DNA of 64,000 nucleotides, from the NCBI RefSeq assembly GCF_040954835.1, contig NC_090696.1, forward strand, positions 77,499,722 through 77,563,721, written 5' to 3'. The notes beneath the pieces are model-generated. The model was not told the DNA's origin. It worked only from the letters and a program-made list of their open reading frames with translations, and did no database searches. Both the position numbers and the translations under genes were made by a program. Positions within the stretch are counted from its first letter, which is position 1; every line of letters begins with the position of its first letter. The stretch is from Lepisosteus oculatus (lineage: Eukaryota; Chordata; Actinopteri; Semionotiformes; Lepisosteidae). Below are positions 16,060 to 64,000 of this stretch, one piece after another.

Positions 16060-16712
16060 GCACAGTTAAATCCATCCACCCATTTCGTAATCTTTTTATC
16101 CACTTCATGGTCTCAGGGGAGCCAGAAACTGTCCCACCAAGAACGGGGTGCAAGGCAGGATACACCAGTCCCTCTAAGGGTACAAGGCAGGGTACACCCT
16201 GGACAGGACACCAGTCCCTCTCAGGGCACAAGGCAGGATACACCCTGGACAGGACACCAGTCCCTCTCAGGGCACAAGGCAGGGTACACCCTGGACAGGA
16301 CACCAGTCCCTCTCGGGGCACAAGGCAGGATACACCCTGGACAGGACACCAGTCCCTCTCGGGGCACAAGGCAGGGTACACCCTGGACAGGACACCAGTC
16401 CCTCTCGGGGCACAAGGCAGGGTACACCCTGGACAGGACACCAGTCCCTCTCGGGGCACAAGGCAGGGTACACCCTGGACAGGACACCAGTCCCTCTCGG
16501 GGCACAAGGCAGGGTACACCCTGGACAGGACACCAGTCCCTCTCGGGGCACAAGGCAGGGTACACCCTGGACAGGACACCAGTCCCTCTCGGGGCACAAG
16601 GCAGGATACACCCTGGACAGGACACCAGTCCCTCTCGGGGCACAAGGCAGGGTACACCCTGGACAGGACTCCAGCCCATCATCGGGCCCTGAACAGTTAA
16701 CTGTTTCCGCAA
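16060..16712 (-). repeat. SINE tail enclosing the 46-bp minisatellite
   Basis: Flanking the minisatellite are ATCCATCCACCCATTTCGTA on the left and CCAGCCCATCATCGGGCCCT on the right. Both are typical of a common fish SINE/LINE tail in reverse orientation. The array expanded a piece from within it, since its core is identical in reverse to the SINE tail at 63966-63984. Confidence 0.6.
16165..16670. repeat. Minisatellite, 11 units of 46 bp
   Basis: The word CCAGTCCCTCT recurs every 46 bases at 16165, 16211, 16257 and so on to 16625, and the phase is kept to 16671: eleven units. Units differ mainly at two positions (TCAGGG/TCGGGG and CAGGATA/CAGGGTA), and the first unit is more diverged (CTAAGGGTAC). 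Because no unit carries a stop in several frames, long open frames exist here on both strands. They are artefacts of the repeat. Confidence 0.95.
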
Positions 16713-24979: not shown

Positions 24980-25107
24980 CGGGCCGGCGCCGGGAGGCCG
25001 GCCAGCGCGATCCGCCGAGGTGTGCTGCTGTCTCCGCGTACGTGTCCCGGTAACCTCCCGGGCCACAGCCCTGCGGACGCTCGTAAGGCGCTCACCCCGC
25101 TCTGAGC

Positions 25108-35455
<10,348 letters not shown>

Positions 35456-37881: not shown

Positions 37882-40800
37882 TTAAAGGGAGCACTCCTGC
37901 AGCTTCTTGTCGGCCAGTTTCAGGGAGACCCAGGTGTTCAACATGGAGGCGCGCAGTTTAGCCCAAACCAGGTGGTCCGTCAGGCCAAAGATCTGAGCGG
38001 CGAACTGCGCGGCTCCATCGGGCGAGAGGACCGTGCTGCAGCCTAGACCTGCAGGAGACACGAGAGCTGAGAAACAGATACGGTACCGCCGCCACACCTG
38101 GGAGGTCCATCCATGCTCGTCTCTTCTCTAAAGAGACGTTTGCCCGGCCAACCGTGAAGCATCTTGAGAGATGTGATATCAGAACAGGCCTCCCACCCCA
38201 GAGCCCCCCGCCGGAAGCCTTACCGCTCGGCATCCTGAGAGACGACCAGATGTCCTGGGCGCCCCAGTCGGGGCTGACCGGCGGGCAGTTGATGACCGGG
38301 TAGGCGGTGTTCCCCGACATGACGGGGCCCAGGCCATTGCTCCGGCCGGCCACAGCCACGAACACGGTGGGCACGCCGTCACCTGGGGGGGGAGAGACGG
38401 CGCCGGAAAGTTACCGGTGTGACACACAGCAGGGGCTCCGCGCGCCACCCCGCTGCGACACAAGACGCGAGATGCGGGCGCTCCAGAGCCACTTCTCTCT
38501 CCCGCGGTGCGTGCCTCCCGCCCCCCCATTCCCCAGCGCCTCGCTCCTCCACTCTCGCACACTAGGAGGCGGAAGAGAGCCCCCTCCCGCCCTCCACAGG
38601 AAGTACCCCGCGTGCCCCCTACCTTCGTACTCGGCCTTGATGCGCAGGGTCTCGTCGGGGCCCTTGTGAGCGGAGGTGACCCTCAGGAGGCAGGGGACCC
38701 CGTAGCCCTCGCAGGCCTTCCGGATCTTGGTGCAGTGGGCCATGTCGGAGGTGGAGCCCATCAGAACCACCACCCGGCCGCCGGCGCGGCTCTCCGGCAG
38801 CAGCTGTGGGGAGACACGAGCCCGTCAGCGCCCAGGCCACATCCATCTGCCCCCGTCCAGGGCAACTCGCAGTTTGGGTTTCTCAGAAACACAGGGATCT
38901 ATAACATTATGCAAAGTAAGTGTGGCGAATTTTTAAGTGGTGTGGAAGAGGCTGCCATCCCACAGTCACATGTCCTCTAAAAGCAGAATGAGCAGAGCGT
39001 GGCACACATCATGTGCCTCTGTCAGCGTGACCTCAATTAGAGCCTTTAATCAACGTCTGTCTACTCGAACAAAAATCAGCCAGCGCTTTTTTTTTTTTTT
39101 TTTTTTTTTACAGTTTCTGCAGTGGAGCAGGAAGAAAAAGAACCCTAAAAGAACTGTTTGGGAAATTATTTACATAATTCCACAGTTTGCGGCATCTATA
39201 TAAAATCAGCATTTTTCCAAGCTGTGTGTCAAATTAGATTTAACGGATCGTGAATTCTGTCAGCTGGTTCTTGATATAGAATCTCGAATTTAAAATTGCT
39301 ACATCCTACTTAATTCTCCATAAAAAACACGTTGTAGATAAAGCTCCCTCTGCCTTCGTGAACGCTACCTTGACTCTTTCAGAAACCCATTCGAAGTTTC
39401 TCTTCACCATCTGCATTGCTTCAGGGGTGACTTCTTTCAGATCTCTGTACACCTGGAGCAAAACAGAAAACAAACAAGCAAATTGCAACAAAGCTGTCCC
39501 TATCAGAAAAGGGCGAAAAGCTCGGCCCCCAGATAGGAGCCAGCACCTGCTTGTCCTTCTGCTGGCTGCGGTCCCCCGAGGGCCACAGCCTCCACGAGTC
39601 ATTGTCGATGACATCAGCCAGCACGATCTCCTTGGTCGTCACGTTGACGCCGAACTCCACCTGCAGGCGGGCGGTGGGAAAGGAGAGGTCATAGGACTGC
39701 ATACAAAGAGGAGGCGAGCTGTGAAATGGGTCTCTGCGTGCTCGGGGGTTCCCCACACCCCGGCAGATCACTTACCTTCATGTCGACCAGGGTGCAGCCC
39801 TGCGTGTCCCAGGCCCGCTCCAGGATCTCGAAGATGGCGACGGTCGTGCGGCTCATGATGTCGATCTCGCAGCGGCCGACGCCGAGGCCCGCGAAGCAGA
39901 ACCGGGCCTCCTGCAGCTGCTCCTCGGACCACTGCGGGTCGTTGTTGGCGTCGTCCTGGGGGCACAGCGAGACGCGGCGTGAGCCCGCCGGCGGGGGCCT
40001 CTCTCGGCGGCGCAGGCCCGGCGGACGCGGGGCGCCTCACCTTGAAGAAGAGCTCCAGCTTGGGCGGGGCGAACCTGTAGCCCTCGCTGACCCCCGGGTT
40101 CCTCTTGAGGAAGGAGCCCGTGGCGACGCGCCGGCACACCCACTCGATGGGGACCATCTCGCAGCGGGCCGCCACGAAGGCCGTGTCCGAGTGCTGCCTC
40201 ACGAAGGCCGTCCGGACCCCTGCACGGCCAGAGAGCGGGTCAGCGGACATCCGCGCCCACTCGAGGTGGGGGTGGGTGGGGGTCTGAACCCCCCTTTTTT
40301 GGCACGACTGAGGAACCCGCGTCTCTTCCGAGGTTCGGGGGAGATCCGAAGGTCGCGGCTCGAGCCGGAGCCCGGCCTGTGCGCTGGCCGCGCTCGGTCA
40401 GAAGCTCACGAGCACCTGGACGCCCGCAGGGCGAGGGGGGGCCTGCCCTGGCACCCTGCTCCCACGACGAGACTCGAAACACGAGAGCTCGGACTCCTCT
40501 GGGCGGGTGGACGATTTAAATGAGGCCCCCTAAACCCTGCTGAATCTGGACTGGGGGTTGTCCCCCTGCTGTGGGCACGGCCCCTGACTGAACCCCCCAC
40601 TTTGCGAGCAGCTTGGCCATACACACGTCAAGGCAGCTGAGTTACACAGCAGCTCTAACAAGACTGGGAAGTCATTGAAACTCTTGCTTTTTGGAGTTGA
40701 GACTCCAACTGAACCAGCCACTTTTCAAAACTCCCGTGTAAAGAAATTATGCTTTGTCCAATAAAAGCCATCCTTCAGCAGCCCCGTGAAACATCCTTCA

Positions 40801-42120
40801 AGAGACCGATTCTCCCTCACACAACCCCTCGCCAAAGACTCGCGGAGAGCAGAAGCAGTAACACTCAACAGCCACACGCTTCTCCCAAGACCAAGTAAGA
40901 ACATAATGATGGCCATTCAGCCCATCTAGCCTGTTTAACAGCGAGTAGCTAATTGATCCCAGGAATCTCCAGGTTATCGGCTTGAACAACATGGCTGGGC
41001 AGCTTGTTCCCCTCTCCCGCATCCCTTTGTGTAATGAAGGGTCTCCTGTCTTCAGTTTTCACCCACCACCACCCACAGTTTCTACTTGTGTCCGCTCTCT
41101 GGTTTTACGCGTGGACAGGCAAGAGTTTAAATTCGCTGTCCCTTGCGGGATCAACAGAGGGGTTAATGAGGACATAAAGACATTTATCTGAGAGCCTACA
41201 GCCTTTGCCCTGTGCGAGGTAAAAAAAAAACAGCAAACGAGTTCGTGTTTCGTCACAGAGGGCTCGTTGGTCCAGTTAGAGAGGACTTATGCTCTGCTAG
41301 TTGGATGGAAACACATTTCAGTAAAACAAGTCATGGTTTATTCCATGCTAAAAGGAAAAGGAGAGACGACAATGTTTGGCTGTGAAGAAGGCTTTAACAC
41401 AGCCCAAACACGGTCTCTCTTTTCTTTTATCTTTCGGAATGGAATAAATGAACCCCAAGACCTGTTCCTCTGCAGTCTGACGCAGCTCCCCACTGTACCC
41501 GGACTGCTTTAGTACAACGCTGCGTGCGCAACTGACGCGTTTTAAACCGTACAAACCAAGACTCCCCCCAGCCCTTCGGCGAACCGCGTTTCACGCAACG
41601 GGGCCGAGGACACGGCAGAGCAGAGCCCGTACCCGCCTCCTGGAGCAGCCGGAACACGCAGCAGGTCGTCCCGTTGGCCAGCGCCGCCTTGCCCTGCAGC
41701 TGGTCCTTCCTGGCGGCGTTGCCGGCGGTGATCTGGTCCTTGGACTGCACCAGCACATGGCCCGGCAGGTCGGGCAGCTCGTAGATCTGCTTCGTCTTGC
41801 CCTCGCTCAGCTTCTGGCCCAGCGGCGGCAGCTCTGCAGGCACACAACGCCCGCTCCTTTCCGTGAACTTGAAATCGCTTGTTCAGACAACAGCGGGGAA
41901 AACCGCATGCGAAGACCGCTGATAATAGCAGCTTCATTTCCCTATCTAGAGGAAAACTTGCTTCTAACCGTAACAAAACTGGCACGTTAAAGCCCTTATC
42001 TGAGCTGCCCGCTAGAGAGTACCCAGCCTCACAAAGGGTTTACTCGGCATGCTCTCGAAGCAACGTGAGAAAGTTAGAAAGCGTTTTGAAGAGGGGGAAA
42101 TTACCTGTTTCAGACGCCAT
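37882..42120 (-). CDS. PAICS: PAICS, bifunctional AIR carboxylase / SAICAR synthetase
   Basis: Nine coding exons on the minus strand: 42120..42105, 41833..41633, 40219..40041, 39955..39776, 39660..39547, 39452..39369, 38803..38623, 38382..38224, 38048..37882. All phases agree; product 426 aa (human 425). The N-terminal half is SAICAR synthetase ([65 protein letters not shown]). The C-terminal half from about residue 268 is AIR carboxylase ([50 protein letters not shown]). The enzyme converts AIR to CAIR and CAIR plus aspartate to SAICAR in cytosolic de novo purine synthesis. The first coding exon holds only 16 bases (MASET + G). On the minus strand TTTTGCAG lies just before GTACAGAAGC, so an additional noncoding 5' exon is possible. 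Confidence 0.95.
39085..39109. repeat. Poly-T tract
   Basis: About 20 T residues in PAICS intron 6; poly-A on the transcribed strand. Confidence 0.85.
40888..41060 (+). repeat. Dispersed repeat family R copy in PAICS intron 2
   Basis: AAGAACATAATGATGGCCAT, TCAGCCCATCTAGCCTGTTT, AGTAGCTAATTGATCCCAGG, GGCTTGAACAACATGGCTGG and CATCCCTTTGTGTAATGAAG. This is the best preserved 5' end of the family in the window. Confidence 0.65.
41322..41478. repeat. Hairpin MITE-like element, copy in PAICS intron 2
   Basis: GGTTTATTCCATGCTAAAAG on the left and TTTCGGAATGGAATAAATG on the right, with GGCTGTGAAGAAGGCTTTAA and CACAGCCCAAACA in the centre. It is a diverged complete copy. Confidence 0.6.
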
Positions 42121-42836: not shown

Positions 42837-45800
42837 ATGGAGTTCGAGGAGCTGGGGATACGCGAGGAGTGCGGGGTGTTCGGCTGCGTGGCGGCGGGCG
42901 AGTGGCCCACGGAGCTGGAGGTGGCCCAGGTGATCACGCTGGGGCTGGTGGCGCTGCAGCACAGGTGAGCCCGGACCCCCGCGGGTCCACGTGGAGTGAT
43001 GTGCGAGTACAGAGGTCCCCCGGGGTCCCCCGGGGACGCGCAGATAGGTGCACCTCTGGCGAGTGCGCAAACGGTGCCGTTTAGGCTAACAGCTGGGGCA
43101 GAAGTTGTTGTTGTTTTGTTTGTTTTTTTTTTATTTCTCGGCGACTCGCTGAACGGCAAGGGTGCAGGCTCTTTAAAATCAAGACCAGAACTCCCGCAAA
43201 TAAAAAAGGGTGGGAGAGCGAGGTGGGTCGCAGGGTGTAACTCCGAGGGACTAGTCCCCGGTGGCGCGGGCGGTTCCTGTCCCGTTTTCCAGGGGGGAAA
43301 CGTTCTCCGTTGCAGGAGTGTTTCCCCTCCTGCGTGTTCAAACCGGCGAGTTTCTGCCCGCGGTCCGGCCCAGCGGTCTGCGACCTCGGCCGCAGTCGCA
43401 GACGCCAGATGTTGGGTGCACGTTACTAAGATGTCTTTAACGCCTATTGACATGGCTGGCTATAACCCTGGAATGCGCTGGCTTGTTTTTCCTTTATCGT
43501 TTAGCATGGAGATTAAGCGTCTTTCTGCGCTTCCCAATAACCGGAGTCAACCGGTGTCCCTGCACAGCTCTAGTCTTTCCAGACAGTTATGTCTGAGGTA
43601 GATAAGGTGCTGACGGGCTCAGACTCTGTGGGGTTTGGATTCAGCGTGGGGGGAGACTCGGTGTGCGTGAGAGAAGTGGAGCCCACGGCGCGCAGACCCG
43701 CCCACAGACCTTGGCCGGTGCGGAGCGGGGGGACGGTGCGATGGAGCAGACGGAGCCGATCTGAATGGTCGGGGTGCCGGTCTCGGCCCGCTCCTCCTTG
43801 CAGCGGGGCCGGGGGTCCGGCGGTGCGGTGTCCCGTCTGGACGGACATTTCCTGGGTGAGAGGGGAAGCTCTGGAAGATAAAATACAGTGGGCTCGCTGC
43901 AGCTGGGAATACCGGTTAGACGTGAGCTTCCAGTGCATGAGCGGTTTTTTTTTTAAATGTGCACGAAGTTAGGTTGTAACTTTACAACCAGCCCGCGTTG
44001 TATACCATCGTCCGCAGACGGGCTATCTCCCGGTGTGGTCAGAAACGTTTAATGGCCTAAGGGCCCGCTCTGCACTCGAATTGAGTGTTTCTCTTGCACC
44101 GTGAATCGACACCTGGGGGGTAACGCCATTGTTCTGGCGAAATACCCGAGCGATACAGGGTTTAGGTGTAGGAATGTCAGCGGTCAAGTCGCCGGAGGGG
44201 CCTGGGCGCACTGATCGCCCATTCAGCTCGACGGCCCGTCTCCCCGGAGACGCATCAGCAGCGCTAATGGCTCGCTGGGACGCAGCGTCCCGGGGCCCTC
44301 CCGGTGTGTGTGGGGCGCAGAGACCTGGGGACAGGGGGCCCCAGCAGGGACAAGGGCAGAGGTGTGAAGGGCTGGAATCCGAGAGCCAATGGAGGAGGTC
44401 CTGAAAGGAAATAATCACGGAGGGGGAGGAAGGTGGAATCCCGGGAGGGGGGGTTCAGAGGTCGGCGGGGTGAGAGGCTGCAGAAGCGGGCATCTCGCAA
44501 AACACCGACCGGCTCGGGTAACAAGCCAGCAAGGACCGCTGGTCCTTCGTCGGGAAAAATAGATTTTCTCAAAAGTGCACTGTCGGATTTAATAGCTCAT
44601 CCTTCTGGTTATAGATCCACCATTACTTCCCTTGAAGGCGTCTGAAACTCAACGGCATGTCTGTGGCCAGTAGACGGGTGTTACGCGGCGATATTCCTTG
44701 GATTCTTCACATGCTGACTTTTTTTCGACTTTTGCCTGTGATCATAAGATGCAGGCTCCGCTTTTGTGCTGGGGATTGTGAAAAGGGTAGCAACAGCAGT
44801 CAGGCCGATAGGTCAGAGACATTCCTCTGATAAATCGGAACGCAAGATGGTCGGTCTCACCTTCTTTGGCCTTTCTCTTGATTCCCTTGGTGGGCAAACT
44901 TTCGGCTTGAGCGCCGGGCTCTTCTTCATCTGTAGAAAATAATAAAATAGGAATTGAGGAGCCACTCCAAACCGGGAACAGTCACACTGTTTAAATACTC
45001 ATATTTTGATTAAAAACGGCTGCGCTTAGGGTTTCTGCAGGAAGTGCACCAGGAAAAAGAGAATTCTATGCTGCAGTGCATAAATAACTACACTCCGACA
45101 CGTGCAGGGCAGCAGTTCAGGAAACGTGTGCTTCCCTCATGGAAGACGTGGGTCCCCTCCTGTAGGCGAGGTGCTGTGGGATCCTGTGGGATTAAAGCAG
45201 GCGCATAACCTCCTGCCTTTGGAAGTGCTGCACTTTGGCACGTCTGGGTGGCGGCTGCAGCTTTGCCTTGGGGGGCTGTGCAGAGGGCCTGTTCTCGGAC
45301 CTGGCGTGTGTTCAGGAACTTTCCTGCTCTGGGCGGGCCGGCTGTGTGGTGGACTGTGTCCAGCCAAGAGGCGGTACCCACCTGGGCTGTTGTCCGCTCC
45401 GGAGCCGGGCCTCGAGGGGGCGCCCGCGACCTCCTCGCGCCCCGCCGCGCCCGGGCCGCCTGCGCGCCGCAGGATGGCGTCCACCTCGTCGTAGAAGCGC
45501 ATGACCCTCCGGGGGTCCCCGCGCGGGCCGCGGCCCCTCTGCAGCGCCCGGTACACGTACTTCAGGTTCTTGTACTTCGTGCGGCACTGCTTCCAGTCCC
45601 GGTCGACGCCGGCCCGCAGCAGCCGACGGGAGATCTGCAGGAAGATGTCCTTGTTCCGGGTCGCGCCCTCCAGCTGCTGCCGGATGCCCTCGTCGGACCA
45701 GACCAGGATCAGCGCCCTGACCTCGTCGTCGCTCCAGTTCCTCCCGATGCCCGAGTCGTTGACCGTGATGACCCGGAACTGGTTCAGAGCCCGGTCGGGC

Positions 45801-48800
45801 GGCGGCCGGTCGTCTGGGGACGAACGAGAGCGTCACCTGACCGCGCCGCATTCGGGTTCTGCCTGTCGCCCTGACAACGCCTCTCGGGAAGCCGGTTGGC
45901 TATTCTGGGGGCTGTGTTTATCGAGTAGAGGCGGGAAGCAGGCCTACTGCCTGGCCTGCGGGGATTGTGGGATCTGACCCTTGAAACACTAGGGACGTTG
46001 TGGCCCGGGTTCAAGTCCAGGAGTGACCGAGAGGCCCGGGGACAGTTCAGGACAGGAGGCAGGTCTTCTCACAGAGGGTTTTGGGTGTCTGGGCTGCCTC
46101 ATCTCGCTGTTGAAATGCAGTCTGTGGGGGCTCGTTTAAGAAAGGGGTTTGGAATTGTGGATCGCTTAGGTGGAATAAACCAGACATTCTCTGGTTTGGA
46201 ATCTGTCCGATCTTGAAAAAGTGTTTTTTTGTGCTTTTTGTGGAGTTGCAGATAATTGTTGTGAAAAGACGCCTTTGTGTACCTTGAGTTACTTTTGTAT
46301 CCATAGAAATCCAATGATTTTGGTGCTTGCTGATATACTTATTGGCAGTAGTAAGGTGCTGTCTCTAAATGTCAGCCATGAATACTGACTGCTGTTTTTT
46401 TTTAAACCAAGCTCTCAATAAGTACAGCAGCTCCTATTTATAATACAGCATGTGCTGTATGATCAAAGTTAAATCTTTTGCACTTCTAAGTATCAAAGTA
46501 TTACATTTTTGGATGGCATATATATGCAGAGAATGTGAAACATTTAGCATTAATATATTGTCATGATACTCACTTCTAACATCATTTTCTTCTATAAACT
46601 TCGAAATAGTGTGGGTTAAAAGTAGTGTTATTGAACGGTATTGTATAACAACTGAGGAATTGTGCTTGTGTATGTACGAAAATGCACAATGGTAACAGCA
46701 ATTAGTTTATTTTGTATCGGCTTACCTGCATCTTTCATTAGCCTCTTCCATGTGCTCAGGATTGTGTGGTCTTCAGAAGTGCAACTAACTGCATCCTCAT
46801 CTAACGGAGGAAAAAGAAACGTTTTACTTGCAAAATCACTTTTTGTGCCACAGAAAGCTGTTTAAGACCTGCGGAGTGCTTGGCTTCATTAGGATGATGA
46901 ATGGAACCTTGTCCCTCTAGGATAAGAAGTTGCTGTCATTCGTCTCAGTTCTTAGAAATGTTATCTTCAGTTGCGGTTGCTTGGGTGATGTATCGGGGAC
47001 CCCTGTCTGGGTCCCGGGGGGACCAGTGGGGCTACAGTCTGGGGTTTTCAGTCTGACTGGGATCCACACAACTTGCGTGAGCTCACAGCCGGCTTCATTC
47101 CCCACCTTATTCCCTTCTCCCAGCTCTCCGGCTGCTGACCTGGAGATCCTGCAGACACACCGGCCCCCCCCACACACAACGAACCAATTCATGATCAATT
47201 TCTTATTTTATTCATCTCTATAGAATTACGGTGCCGGAACTTATTTTCAATTTCATTTAAAATAAACACTAAACCACTAGGTGGTGTAACAGCACACTGA
47301 TGTACTTCAGAGATCAGAGAAGTACTAAGTTGTCGAAGGTATTATTTGAAATGACTGTACCGGCGTCCTGTGGCTCCTTTTTAATACATGGGATGACAGG
47401 CTCCTCGGAGTTGGTGCTGAAGGTGTCCGTTTCGTCCAGCCTTGGGCTGTCTTCCTCTGTGCCGCAGGAGAACAGAAGTGTTCCTTACACGTTTGGCAAA
47501 AGTTATGAAAAACATTGAACAAGGCCTGCCTTGCCTTTTAAATATCGGGGTGTTGGGTAACAGGTGGATACCCCTTGTACTGTGCAGCTGTGCCCCCCCC
47601 ACACGCACATCTGGACACAGCTGCCCGTGGAGGATGCTCTGAAAGCCCGGGTGAGCGTTTAAGCGGGCGAGAGTGGCTGGGCGCTGGGAGAGGCCCCAGC
47701 CCGACGCAGTGCATGCTGGGGCAGCCAGGGGGCGCCCCTGCATCTAGCCGGCGTGGCGGGGAGGGCAGGAGGGAGGGCGTGCGATCTCTCCACAGCAGGT
47801 GGAAGCGGCGTCTTTACCTTCACTGAAGTCCATTCCCCGGTCCTGCGTCTGGCCCAGCTGCTCCAGCGGCCTGTTTTCCAGGATGGACTCCACCTCCTTG
47901 AAGAACTTCATGTTCTTCCACGCGCTGCCCGAGCCCTGGGAGCTCCTGGCGGTCTTGTACTCGTACTTGAGGTTCTTGTACTTGGTCCGGCACTGCTTCC
48001 AGTCGCGTTCGATCCCGAACCTCTGCAGCCGCCGGGCGATCTCCTGGAAGATGCTCCGGTTCCGCGCGGCCCCCTCCAGCTGGGCTTGGACCCTCCTGTC
48101 TGACCAGACGTACAGCAGGGCCCGGACCTCGTCGTCCGTCCAGTGCTTCCCTCCCTCGGTGGCCACGGGCGGGATGAAGGCCACCCCCCGGGGGGGGCGG
48201 CTGCCTGCGACAGAGGGGGGGGCAGGTTGGGCTGTGGCTGGAGAGGTGACGAGAGGGATTCTGTACGGTGACGTTGATCGACACCGACGTCATCCCAGAC
48301 CTTGCCCGGTTTTACAGGCTCTTCCGTCTCTACGGAATTAAAAAAAAAACTTTTTATCCACAGCGGCTAACGTTCCCATTCGCACAGCGTGTCCTTCTCC
48401 TGACATGTGGATGCCCTTGCTGTGAGGTACCAACAGCCCCTGACCAGACCCCTGCATGGCATTTTAACCCTCGACCTTTTGGTTATGAGCCCGGCACCGT
48501 AATCTGTGCTCCTTGGCGCCTTTCCTGTAAGACACGGCTGATGTGCACCATGCGAGTCTGCACTCATACCGACCACACAGAACCATCTCCCAGATCACGC
48601 AGAACATCGGGTTATGAACGAGATTAGGCCCGTGTTAGAGGGGTTAGTTAGTGGCTCATCGATCCCTGCTGTTCTTGAAAGAAACTAGCGTTTCGGCTTC
48701 ATCAGATTGGCGTCGTAGCCTGTTCCAGACCTTCACATCCCACAGGAAGTCTGTTTTTTTTAATTCTGTGGCAGAAACATGTTCTGCTCCACTACAGGGG

Positions 48801-51800
48801 GTTCTAATAAAGTAGTTCAAGCAGCGAGCTGCCTCAGCGTGCGTAGGCCGCGAAGTAACAGGTGAAGGTTTATTTCACGCTGAAAGGAAAAGAAGAGACT
48901 GCGTTCTGGCTAGTTTTTGAGCCCCCTACTTTATGTGTGTTTGAAGAGTTGAGTTCTATCGATTTCAGCATTAAAACGAGGATTATATGGCATGGCGAGC
49001 GACGGGGGGAGAGAGATCAGTGTTAGGATCTTCCTGTTTGTATTTTCCAGAATGTTTCGACCTATTGAAATATATTTTTTTTACCTGAACCCAGAGATCA
49101 GATCTGCTCAGCGGAGACAAATGGCGGTCCTGTATGAGCCAGTGCCGCCCAGGCGAGTTCGGCTGGCGTGCGCCCCGTGCCGCTCGGTTACCTGGGCCAG
49201 GTGTGCCGCTGCTGGCCTTCACTGCCGGGCGTGGCAGCAGGTCATCTGAGGTCATGCTGAGGTCGTCCTCTTCCAGAGCCACGCAGATCTCCCCCACTTC
49301 TGGATTTTGTTTAGATTGTGGAAAAAAAAAACAACAAAATTAATCAAAAGGTGCATTTAGGTTCAGTAGCCTATCAGAGGTGACGTATAGTGTTGTTGCG
49401 TTCCTGCTTTCCTGGCTACAGGGGCACAGCTGAAGCCTCTTGTCTGTGGAGCTGGTGTGATTTTAGGCAGCACTAGGGTCTCATGGTTTCAAACATGGTA
49501 AATGTGTCCAGCGGTAACAAGGCCTTTTCACCTGTATTTTGCTGGAAGAAAAATCCCTTTTTAAGGGAAGCGTATGCTGCCGGCGGAAGCCGAGCATTTC
49601 GACTCTGGCTTAGCGGAAGAAAGTGATAGTGTGGAAGTAAAGCCCTGCTGGTCCGGGATCAGGGAGTAATGCTATTGCCCTGTGAGGTCATAATCTGGCC
49701 AGCACTTGCTGCTCTGGTGGTTGGAGGACCAGGCGAAGAGCCCTGCTAGGCAGGCCACACCCCTGTGGTTGAAATGAAGATAGTAGATGCAGAGGTGGGT
49801 TTCAGATGTACACTGTTGGGCCCTGTGGAGTTCAAGATCACTTTCTTAGGGTGTCGATATCCTAGCTGAAATTCAGTGTTGTATTTGTTAGCAAGGGTTA
49901 AAGTCCCTCTACTCCTCTGGGTGACTTCATTTGAGCGCTGCCTGCGAGTTACCTGCATGAGCCATGTCCGAGCTGGACCGGGTTTCTTCCTCGCTGACCC
50001 TCGCGGAGTTAGCGCGCGCTCCGTCCTCCTCTTCCTCCTCCTCCTCCTCGTCCGGGGCCTGGGATGCAGCCTCCCCGGCCAGGATGGCGTCCAGCTCCAG
50101 GAAGAACTTCATGGACTTCCCGAGGTCGCCTGTAGAGTGGGCGTGCTTCACGGTTCGGTACTCATACTTCAGGTTCTTGTATTTGGCCCGGCACTGTTTC
50201 CAGTCCCGAAAGACGCCGAAGTCCTGCAGCCTGCTGGAGATGTATATGAACATGGCTTTATTCCTGGTTGCCCCGTGGAGATATCTCTGAATGTTCCTCT
50301 CCGACCACACGGTTAAGAGGGCTTTCACCTCCTCTTCAGTCCAGTGCTTCCCTGCTCCGCACTCCATGTTCAAAATGACCTGGAAACAGTTATCTCCCTC
50401 CCCTGTGCCACCTAGTTGCTGAGGCAACCAGACGGCTGGTTGTCAGTGAGCGCTCGCGCAGCTGAAAGGAGCTTCGTTACTGGCTTAAGCTGCGTAGGGG
50501 GAGGGGGAAACGTGTAATCGGAGAAGCAGCTTGGTGAGCAGGCTGCAGTGCAGGCTCTTTCCAAATAAGGCAACTCCGAAGCAAATGTTTTACAAGTGAC
50601 GCTCCAAGCTCTTGCCAGTGCAGCTAGAGCGAACAATGAGCAGCTTTTCTTTTTACTTCCTTTGTGAAACTCCTTAAGACGGGGTGGCTGAAGGGCTCGG
50701 CAGCTCAGTGTTTTTTTTAGAAGCCTGAAAAGGCACCCAAGCCTAAGGAACCTTCTTTACATCAGGAGTAGTTTAAGTCCGAGTTTGAGAGGGCCATTGC
50801 AGCTCTCAAGCTGTTTATTGTGCTCTGTCGGGAATCTGCTTGTGAGTGGAAGCAGGCTTGCAGTGTGTCTTTGCAAACACTTTGACATCTGGTCGTTCCG
50901 GGTTAACGAAGAGTATCCAAGATGCATGGAGGATATCAAGATTTCTTGCAGAAAATCATTACACATACTGACTAAAATAGGACATTTCTGCCTTTTAAAA
51001 TAAATAGTGATTGGAGATGTCCGTGCAATAATTTAGAAATCTCTGAGTATGAAATTAACTGTCCTCATACTGTACTTCACACCTGTTTAGTGGTCTTTAT
51101 CATTGTAATGAATTTATGCTGGGGAGAAAACTGATTATGTATCAGTTATTATGTCATCGGGGAATCCACTAGTCCTGTGCCCAGAAATCAATGAAACATA
51201 AAGGTTACAGACGAGGCCATTTCACCCTGTTTGGTAGTGAATGAATGTGAACGTCTCGCCCAGCTGTTTCATGAATGGAGCCAGCGTGGCGGTAGTCTGT
51301 TCCACACTGCTGTGCCGCTGTGCGCGAGGAGGTTCCTGAACTCGTCCATCCAGAATTCCCTGCTTGGGCCTTTCAGAAGCTCTCATCTGCTGTAAGATGT
51401 CAGGGGAATTTAATACTGGACTTCAACTGGTCATAAATACTGGACTTTCCCTGCACTTGAATCGTAGTAAGAATTACATACTCTTGGAATTTTATGGTTA
51501 ATGCACTGAATTTTGTTAAGCAGAAAAATATGTTCTGTTTTCAGCAGTCATTTATTATATCTAGGGTACTTGTGCATGCTCTTTCTTTTCTATATGTAGC
51601 TACCCTTAACTCATTGCAAGGAGCAGTGGTCCTGCGTCTCTCATCAGCGCACGCTACGCGCTGCTCTACACAGGTGTGAAAGACCCTCTCGAGCTGTCGG
51701 CAGCCCACCCTCCCGGTCTGTTTGCATGCAGCCAGGAGATCAGAGCAGCAGACGGTCTCCACTCCTTGCAGGCCGGAGTCACAGAAAAGTGACCTGACCT

Positions 51801-54800
51801 TGGCCGAGCGTTGTGATGGACACAGCTCTTGCCTGAAAGGTTTTTTTACACGGTTTTGGCCCTGCTAAATCTGCAAAACAAGCGAAAGCTCAGCAGCTCA
51901 TTAAAACAGGGGTGGGATCCTTGTTCCAGAGGCTGGCCTGTCTGCAGGATTTCATTCCGTCTTCTCTCTGCCCTTGACCTGAATCGGCACGCTATCGGCT
52001 TCGTGCTACCAGCTTCTCCCCACTCTCCTAGAAAACACATCCCCCTCCACATCCCCACAACCGCCGACCCTGCGGTCAAACAGGAGACTCCAGCGTTTTA
52101 CCATCATCTCATCTTCTTGGTCATTGTCCCGTCTGTTTTCGCTATGAGTAAGTCTTTGAATTATGTCTGTGTCTGTGAACTGTTCTTCAGGGGACAAGAG
52201 AGCGCTGGAATCGTGACGAGCAATGGAGCCTCCCCACCAGTGTACTACTCACACAAGGTACGTCGAGCTGCAGACTCGCCTTTTAAGACCACGGTTAGGA
52301 CTCCGTGTGAAAATCGCTGGCATGATGAATTAGTCAATGCAAAGAAAGCACAGTGCAAGTGTGTGTTTTCAGAAGATGAATTGTGTGCAAATGTTGTTAT
52401 TTTTGCAGAATAAGACATTTTGGTGTGCTTTCTGGGACCATCAAGTACGATTTCTGAGCTGAAAGAGATCGTTCTTCTGCCCCCGAGTGAGGGGGCTGTC
52501 GTGCGAGCTGCCGGTGGTCCGGCGAGGTGGTTTCAGCATCTGTCTTTGTGCCTTGTTTCTCAGGGGATGGGTCTGGTGAGCAACGCCTTCCCGCCCGAGG
52601 CCCTGCAGAAGCTCGAGTATGGAAACCTGGGCATCGGACACACGCGGTACTCGACGACGGGCATTTCGGAGCTGCAGAACTGCCAGCCCTTCGTCGTGGA
52701 GACGCTGCACGGGAAGATCGCCGTGGCCCACAACGGGGAGCTGGTGAACGCCCAGAAGCTGCGCAAGCAGGTGAGGTGCAGGCCGCTGGTCCCCGGCTCC
52801 GGGTTCGAGCGGGATAGCCGGTGGCCTGGATGAGCTGGGGGCGTGGAGCTGCCCGCCGTCCTCTCAAACACGACCCCCCCGGCTCCTGAGCCTCCTCTGC
52901 TTTGACAGCTGGAACAGGCTGCTATTTGCTGCTCAGCAGGGCTGTCCGCTCCGGTTGACGTGAGGACCGTGTCCAGGCCTCGGGGGTAGTTCTGTCCTTC
53001 TGCGCGGGCAGACCTTGCCCGGGCGCCACCTGACCGCCGCTTTCTCCGCAGGTGATGCGCCACGGCGTGGGTCTGTCCACCAGCTCCGACAGCGAGCTGA
53101 TCATGCAGCTGCTGGCCCTCACTCCGCCCATGGAGGAGCTGGACACCCCGGACTGGGTGGCTCGGTACGTCCCCGTCCCCGCTGCGCCCCAGCCTCTTGA
53201 ACTGCCTGTGCCTTGTGCCCGTGTGGAGTGTATGTCGCGATCACAGAACCAGCACAGCTGTTTTCCAGTGGCCAGTCCTGGAGCGCCCCAGAATCCAGCG
53301 TGTTATAGAAACGCTTCTAAAATCGACTTCTAGACGCACAGAACCGTCAAAAGCAGGGAATGTGTTCAGTTTAAACACTGGAAATGCAAATACCAAACCC
53401 CTGTATCTCCTGGTGGCCTGGAAGGGGGGTGGAAAAGGAGACGGCTTTTGTTTTTGTTGATGCACATTTAGCTTGGGTTGTGTACTGGAGTTATGGCTTC
53501 TGTATTCCAGGATAAAGAATCTGATGACTGAAACGCCGACTTCCTACTCCTTACTCGTGATGCACCAAGACGTTATTTACGCAGTCCGTGACCCGTATGG
53601 GAATCGACCTCTCTGTCTGGGCCGCCTTGTTCCCAGCTCCAGATTGCAGGGCGCAGGTATCGGCTTTTTTGTTTGTGCTTCAGGAAAGGTCAAGGACTTG
53701 TAGTTGACGGAAAGTTCTAGCTTTATCTGTTGTCCTCAAAAAATACAGTGAAGAATGCAGATAACAGCTGGTTGAGCAAAAGCCCAAATATTTCATGTCG
53801 AGGCATAGTCCGGCTGGCTTATCTCGTGTGTAAAAAACAAAAATCAATTAGAAAGAACTGAGAGGTTAGCTTTGTGTAACTTTGCATCGTGTTTTAACAT
53901 ATTTGGAAAAGCACAGATAACAGAGGAAGGAAGATACCCGGAATACTGATTTTCTGCCTTTCGAATTGATTCCTCCCCAGTTTTGAACTGGTAGATTAAA
54001 AACGATAGGAACTTGGCAGTGAGAGAAATGAGTAACTGTGGTCCAAGAGGGTAACTTAGCTCTGCATGTGATGACGGGTGTTGCTTAAATGTTCGATCTG
54101 TAAGGATCATTTTCTGTTTGAAAAATATTTTGATCTATTCACGCTTCATTTTTAAGACATATTGAGAAACATATTTTTATTCTTCATCGGAATGGACAAT
54201 GTGTGCAGACTCGTAGGTATTTTTGATTAGCGAATCATTAGTAACGTTTTCTCAACTGTTAACGTTAATGTTGCCATTTCAAAATCACTCAAGTGGACTT
54301 CTCCTCTACGGACAGGGGGCGAGACAGGGAGTGCGGAAACCGAGGGCTGGGTTGTCTCCTCTGAATCCTGTGGTTTCCAGTCAATCGGAGCCCGGTAGGT
54401 TCTCCCAGCAGGTTACCGCTGCTGAAAAGGATACGTTTCTGTAGTACACAAGCGCAAACTGTGACCTCTGGGTGCCGTGGATCACAGATTTCTTTATCCT
54501 CTGCATATTCTCTCCAGGAAAGATGCTTACTAGGTGTGAGGAGGAGGTCTGTCTTGCCCCTCCTGGTTCGGTAGGTCTGTGCTGTGCAGACGGTTCCTCA
54601 TGTTCTCTGCTTGGTTCCTCTCTCAGGTATTATCGTGAGGTCCTGCCAGGAGAGATTGTGCAGATCTCGAAGCATGGGGTGAAGACGCTGAGTGTTGTGC
54701 CCAGACCAGAGGGAGATCCTCCTGCCTTCTGCATATTTGAATATGTTTATTTTGCGAGACCAGACTCGATATTTGAAGGTAAGTGACCATAGCTGTTCTT

Positions 54801-63585: not shown

Positions 63586-64000
63586 GCAGCTTGCCAGCAG
63601 TCATGTCACCCTGCAGCTCCCAGCTGGCAGCCCACTGCAGCTAAGCAGGTGTGAGCCTGGTCAGGACTTGGATAGGAGACCCACTGGGAAGCTATGGTGG
63701 CTGCTGGAAGAGGTGTTAGTGGGACCAGCGGGGGAGGCTCACCCTGCGGTCTGTGTGGGTCCTGATGCCCCGGTATAGTGGCGGGGACACTATGCTGTAG
63801 TGGGCGCCCTCTTTCGGATGAGACGTTTAACCGAGGTCCTGACTCTCAGTGGTCATTAAAGATCCCCCCTGAGCAATTCTGGATAAGAGTAGGGAGTTAT
63901 CCCAGTGAATGTATTGTCCCCGTGTATGATGGGCCTGCACTTGCCCTGCGATGGACTGGCGCCCAGTCCAGGGTGTACCCTGCCAGTTTGGCAAAGGACA
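63586..64000 (+). repeat. 5S-rRNA-headed SINE3, reaching the window end
   Basis: The head shows the 5S internal control region: CAGCTAAGCAGGTGTGAGCC, TGGTCAGGACTTGG and the C-box-like GGATAGGAGACC (63670-63681). The body (CTGTGTGGGTCCTGATGCCC, TTTCGGATGAGACGTTTAAC) matches the copy at 10858-11416. The tail is different: it ends with GCGATGGACTGGCGCCCAGT and GTCCAGGGTGTACCCTGCC. Confidence 0.8.

Follow-up and report, generated by a model that had tools for sequence, protein, structure and literature searches.

The first intron of PPAT in Lepisosteus oculatus raises the question of whether a protein-coding gene is nested there on the opposite strand, to which family its product would belong, and whether its position would matter for the host. 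The window, i.e., the whole stretch of DNA analyzed (64,000 nucleotides; bases 77499722-77563721 of contig C1), belongs to an assembly of 1.2 Gb in 813 contigs. On its plus strand, the coding part of PPAT exon 1 (42837-42964) and the start of exon 2 (52191) bracket intron 1 (42965-52190). When joined, PPAT exons 1-3 match known structures of amidophosphoribosyltransferases, the best with E 1.5e-58, and PPAT motifs continue to about 56 kb of the window. PAICS lies to the left of PPAT on the minus strand, which is also the strand of the nested gene; two frames there (41430-41882 and 39424-39771) match SAICAR_synt and a third (38414-38824) matches AIRC.

The original prediction had placed eight minus-strand exons in one 603-codon frame, wholly between PPAT exons 1 and 2. 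Both the chain and its position are borne out: the coding region (43641-50367) lies inside PPAT intron 1, on the opposite strand and bracketed by exons 1 and 2. We are fairly confident that this is a real protein-coding gene for a nuclear, probable transcription regulator with three PF13837 domains. The domains would go back to the duplication in tandem of one domain exon, and the antisense nesting of the gene in its host would be passive.

Exon chain and reading frame

The eight exons join into a single open frame with no stop or frameshift. Its length depends on which of two in-frame acceptors of exon 3 is used, with 614 codons for the acceptor at 48237 and the predicted 603 for that at 48204. 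All seven introns are in phase 1. Exon 1 (49953..50367) carries the start codon at 50367, with A at -3 and G at +4, as well as trihelix domain 1 (PF13837, E 3e-17) and an acidic tail; its donor ranks at the 99.1 percentile. CpG around the start codon gives no promoter sign, with observed/expected ratios of 0.70 (50001-50500) and 0.50 (50251-50750) and a window value of 0.68. Exon 2 (49192..49299) encodes an acidic linker and is open in phase 1-1; it is the least supported exon, with a donor at the 98.1 percentile and an acceptor at the 59th. Trihelix domain 2 (E 1.2e-19) is encoded by exon 3 (47818..48237, or starting at 48204; acceptors at the 97.2 and 99.5 percentile). Exon 4 (47361..47456), likewise open in phase 1-1, encodes an acidic linker with an IKKE stretch, which we take to be a SUMO-site-like motif, and has a weak donor (79th percentile). 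The short acidic linker of exon 5 (46726..46800) is flanked by splice sites that both exceed the 99th percentile. Exon 6 (45382..45813) carries trihelix domain 3 (E 8.8e-18) and has two splice sites that rank higher than the 98th percentile; exon 7 (44861..44929) encodes a linker that is first acidic and then basic (KGIKRKAKE), both of its splice sites being above the 99th percentile.

Two terminal exons are possible, and the C terminus and 3' end of the nested gene are uncertain. Exon 8 of the original prediction (43641..43870) encodes a proline/arginine-rich C terminus, in which a Pfam search up to E 1 found no match, and ends with a stop codon at 43641. An alternative terminal exon on the same strand (44264..44400) also has an in-frame stop and would give 583 or 572 codons instead; its acceptor ranks at the 98.9 percentile, compared with 98.5 for exon 8. 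An acceptor for exon 3 at 48329 was ruled out because it breaks the frame, and an extra exon beyond exon 8, judged by eye, was dropped because the phases are incompatible. A candidate poly(A) signal, AATAAA, is found on the minus strand at 43130..43135 in an A-rich run and would stop the transcript within PPAT intron 1. ATTAAA is also present at 44053 and 44593.

Splice sites were scored with splice-site matrices, and each score was ranked among those of every GT or AG dinucleotide on both strands of the window. The predicted proper splice signals are found at most sites, 6/7 donors reaching at least the 98th percentile and 6/7 acceptors at least the 95th; the exon 2 acceptor and the exon 4 donor are the weak exceptions. 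Open phase 1-1 exons were also sought in a blind scan, which, with thresholds chosen when the scores of the nested gene were already known, gave 15 rows on the minus strand and five on the plus strand of the window. Six of the minus-strand rows fall within the 6.9 kb gene span: exon 3 is recovered twice, in alternative forms, exon 1 in part, and exons 5, 6, and 7 once each; the other nine, counted without inspection, are spread over the remaining 57.1 kb. Exons 2 and 4 were not recovered by the scan. The weak exon 2 acceptor, the weak exon 4 donor, and the ambiguous C terminus speak against the reading as a real gene.

Three trihelix domains and their duplication

Three exons of the chain (1, 3, and 6) encode PF13837 (Myb_DNA-bind_4, trihelix), scoring 63.3, 70.9, and 64.9 bits where the cut-off is 27. 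The matches cover positions 2-89, 2-88, and 2-89 of the 89 model positions, and the joined protein reaches E=4.3e-54. The three full Myb/SANT-like trihelix domains that had been predicted are thus present, and the RDWKQCR and KYKNLKY blocks, said to be common to them, are invariant in all three. Among solved structures, the only significant match is the plant GT-1 trihelix domain (2ebi and 2jmw, E about 2e-6); an adhesin accounts for four more matches, at E 0.1-0.5. The joined model of 614 residues has matches, up to E 0.01, in three Myb/SANT-type families and no others, and its weak matches to Myb_DNA-bind_5 (E 0.0024) and MADF (E 0.00099) fall short of their own cut-offs. The first linker is acidic (26 E + D among residues 101-200 of the 603-codon model), and basic stretches lie near the C-terminal end of the protein.

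The three domains share 50-55% of their residues with one another. At the DNA level, they appear as direct repeats of 195 + 51 nt, which are 67-76% identical to the reference copy and about 2.4 and 2.2 kb apart. Similarity among the three units is limited to the domain-coding sequence according to both the repeat comparison and blastn. The latter compared the units 43871-45813, 45814-48237, and 48330-50367, leaving out 92 bases between the last two, and found no match better than E 0.14 outside the domain exons and no detectable similarity between introns. Similarity that is confined to exons and lacking between introns favors a constrained coding gene over chance.

The 195-nt core of domains 1, 2, and 3 (D1, D2, and D3) carries a coding pattern. 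The identities at codon positions 1/2/3 are 0.69/0.86/0.49 for D1-D2, 0.74/0.78/0.51 for D1-D3, and 0.75/0.82/0.72 for D2-D3, and hence the second position is most alike and the third least alike in 3/3 pairs. Amino-acid identity also peaks in the proposed frame in 3/3 pairs (0.66, 0.60, and 0.68), compared with 0.38-0.58 in the other sense frames and 0.38-0.60 in the antisense frames. For D2-D3, both of which are GC-rich, an antisense frame is almost equally alike (0.60 vs. 0.68). Over the entire domain the pattern is weaker, with 0.69/0.69/0.51 for D1-D3 and 0.64/0.70/0.68 for D2-D3, where the third position exceeds the first. Thus, in this pair it is not the third position that varies most, possibly because both copies are GC-rich. 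The NG86 dN/dS values of the three pairs are 0.40/1.01, 0.40/1.04, and 0.40/0.58, the ratio for D2-D3 being only about 0.68. This ratio, the whole-domain codon-position pattern, and the D2-D3 antisense frame also count against the reading as a real gene.

The same data bear on the idea that the locus is a decaying or untranslated relic, in which the domains are old coding sequence but the gene as a whole has ceased to be expressed. Two poor splice sites, the uncertain 3' end, and the weaker codon-position signal across the entire domain would fit such a relic. However, the eight joined exons are free of stops and frameshifts, whereas the introns of the copies have no detected similarity, and we regard a relic as quite improbable.

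For the real gene that we favor, the three domains look like the result of an old tandem duplication. The domain exon would have been multiplied in tandem, probably along with one or more phase-1 linker exons. In a tree of nine trihelix domains, comprising the three of the window and six of 14 other genome places (L016-L023 omitted), the window's domains group together with 80/77 support on long branches, and no branch is starred. The tree joins D1 with D3 (88/91) whereas DNA identity is higher for D2-D3, and therefore we claim no order of duplication.

Relatives of the nested gene and its predicted product

Domain 2 as a query against the 1.2 Gb genome gives at least seven matches, three in the window and four elsewhere that are 29-38% identical. 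Since four other places match it, the family is a known one. A search with the Pfam model gives at least 17 matches in the genome, 14 of them marked as over the cut-off (one marginally, with 26.9 bits, or 27.1 counting neighbors), and none in 14 control genomes. Among the matches listed, there is no second place where three domains occur together. One trihelix locus at 40.7 Mb of contig C1 resembles MSANTD1, and another, on contig C26, resembles MSANTD2. The closest three other loci among the matches listed, on contigs C21 (L004), C15 (L005), and C3 (L006), have a trihelix domain like that of the nested gene, 31-38% identical to domain 2, and in all three an open phase-1 donor is available downstream of the domain, as in the nested gene. 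A common exon structure is thus likely. L004 and L005 additionally offer phase-0 donors, so the common exon phase is likely rather than proven. The three-domain alignment gave 36 pattern matches in viral contigs and 34 in prokaryotic contigs, with none confirmed in either set, as expected from the viral and prokaryotic nature of these collections.

Harbinger elements encode Myb/SANT-like proteins, and together with the sub-cut-off matches to Myb_DNA-bind_5 and MADF this might point to a gene captured from a transposon-carried (PIF/Harbinger-like) Myb protein. Such an origin is extremely unlikely in our view: Myb_DNA-bind_4 is far ahead of the other families, the nested gene has multiple exons, and the protein search, whose counts are lower bounds, does not find it in multiple copies, although a gene domesticated long ago could also exist as a single copy.

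Known members of the PF13837 family include plant GT-1 and the animal proteins MSANTD1, MSANTD2, ZSCAN20/ZSCAN29, and UTF1. All three copies in the nested gene contain the same domain above the Pfam cut-off, but unlike these proteins the nested gene has three domains per protein, each on one exon. In ZSCAN20 and ZSCAN29, SANT domains are accompanied by a SCAN domain and by zinc fingers of the C2H2 type. The joined 614-residue protein matches neither a SCAN nor a zinc-finger domain, and hence it falls outside ZSCAN20/29 so defined. According to one study, a mammalian ZSCAN20-like gene carries a second SANT domain and is proposed as the source of eutherian UTF1; no UTF1 orthologue was found in fish there (PMC3706607).

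The nested gene is thus probably a further member of a known trihelix family in an ordinary arrangement. The original prediction of an antisense-nested gene for a DNA-binding-type protein is backed, at the level of sequence, by the domains, the frame, the phases, and the exon-confined similarity. From family membership we infer that the protein binds DNA. The gene would be transcribed antisense to PPAT, giving a nuclear protein with three trihelix domains separated by acidic linkers. The protein would most likely act as a transcription regulator, with two or three of its domains binding adjacent or spaced DNA sites jointly, and it would recruit other factors.

Position within PPAT

Nesting of this kind is unsurprising, since 5-14% of vertebrate genes are in overlaps of any kind according to a survey (PMC2151771). 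Like other vertebrate nested or overlapping genes, the one described here has its coding region on the opposite strand within a host intron, and only the identity of host and guest was found to be unusual.

The nested gene might regulate its host, either by convergent transcription from about 50.4 kb toward the PPAT/PAICS start at about 42.8 kb or through a protein that dampens PPAT and perhaps PAICS. The nested gene is oriented toward PPAT exon 1, roughly 170 bases separate the end of this exon from the candidate poly(A) signal at 43135, and PAICS follows beyond on the strand of the nested gene. Moreover, a bidirectional promoter common to PPAT and PAICS is described for mammalian systems (PMC2444028). 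These points concern geometry, however, and the sequence carries no regulatory sign; in addition, vertebrate overlaps are mostly not conserved according to the survey cited above (PMC2151771). Interference with PPAT is possible, with support so far from geometry, but we consider regulation of the host unlikely. A more elaborate reading, in which the triple-trihelix locus would be a local brake on PPAT/PAICS through its transcription or its product and at the same time an old relative, lacking SCAN, of those SANT exons that ZSCAN20, ZSCAN29, and UTF1 came to carry later in mammals, appears very doubtful. Most likely, the position of the gene within PPAT is passive.

A gene of this kind is not named in the accessible portions of the open-licence literature on trihelix/SANT families, PPAT/PAICS, and nested genes. 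If it is expressed and conserved, it would add a regulator with three domains to the trihelix family and would provide an actual example of a DNA-binding gene nested at the region that controls purine synthesis. Furthermore, the nested gene suggests a route by which a phase 1-1 domain exon may be multiplied inside one gene.

Possible alternative 3' end of the nested gene

Splice-site scoring and the joined frame point to a candidate alternative terminal exon, which is proline-rich, at 44264-44400 on the minus strand. Its acceptor equals in strength that of the originally predicted terminal exon (43641-43870, minus strand) of the nested trihelix gene, and two ends may be possible for this gene. 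Elsewhere in the genome, L017 and L018, two places at 30.75 Mb of contig C4, carry a weak PF13837-type domain pair (30.0 and 28.5 bits) on opposite strands, ~4 kb apart.

Domain matches left of PAICS

Domain-family matches of the RING type and to the LON substrate-binding domain occur on the plus strand (frames 25087-25917 and 33287-33622, respectively). Together (25087-33622), they perhaps represent a single LONRF-like gene to the left of PAICS.

Tandem and dispersed repeats

Several frames on either strand are open across a tandem repeat at 16162-16686 (46-base unit, 11.4 copies, 97% matches). According to its genome copies, a 5S rRNA-like match (63593-63709, plus strand; Rfam, 41.7 bits) is part of a dispersed repeat: among 6401 candidates, the 40 scored comprise the window's own copy and 39 further ones with identities of ~86-90%. 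Because the match sits in a dispersed repeat with such similar scored copies, the element is probably a 5S-derived SINE, a name we infer.
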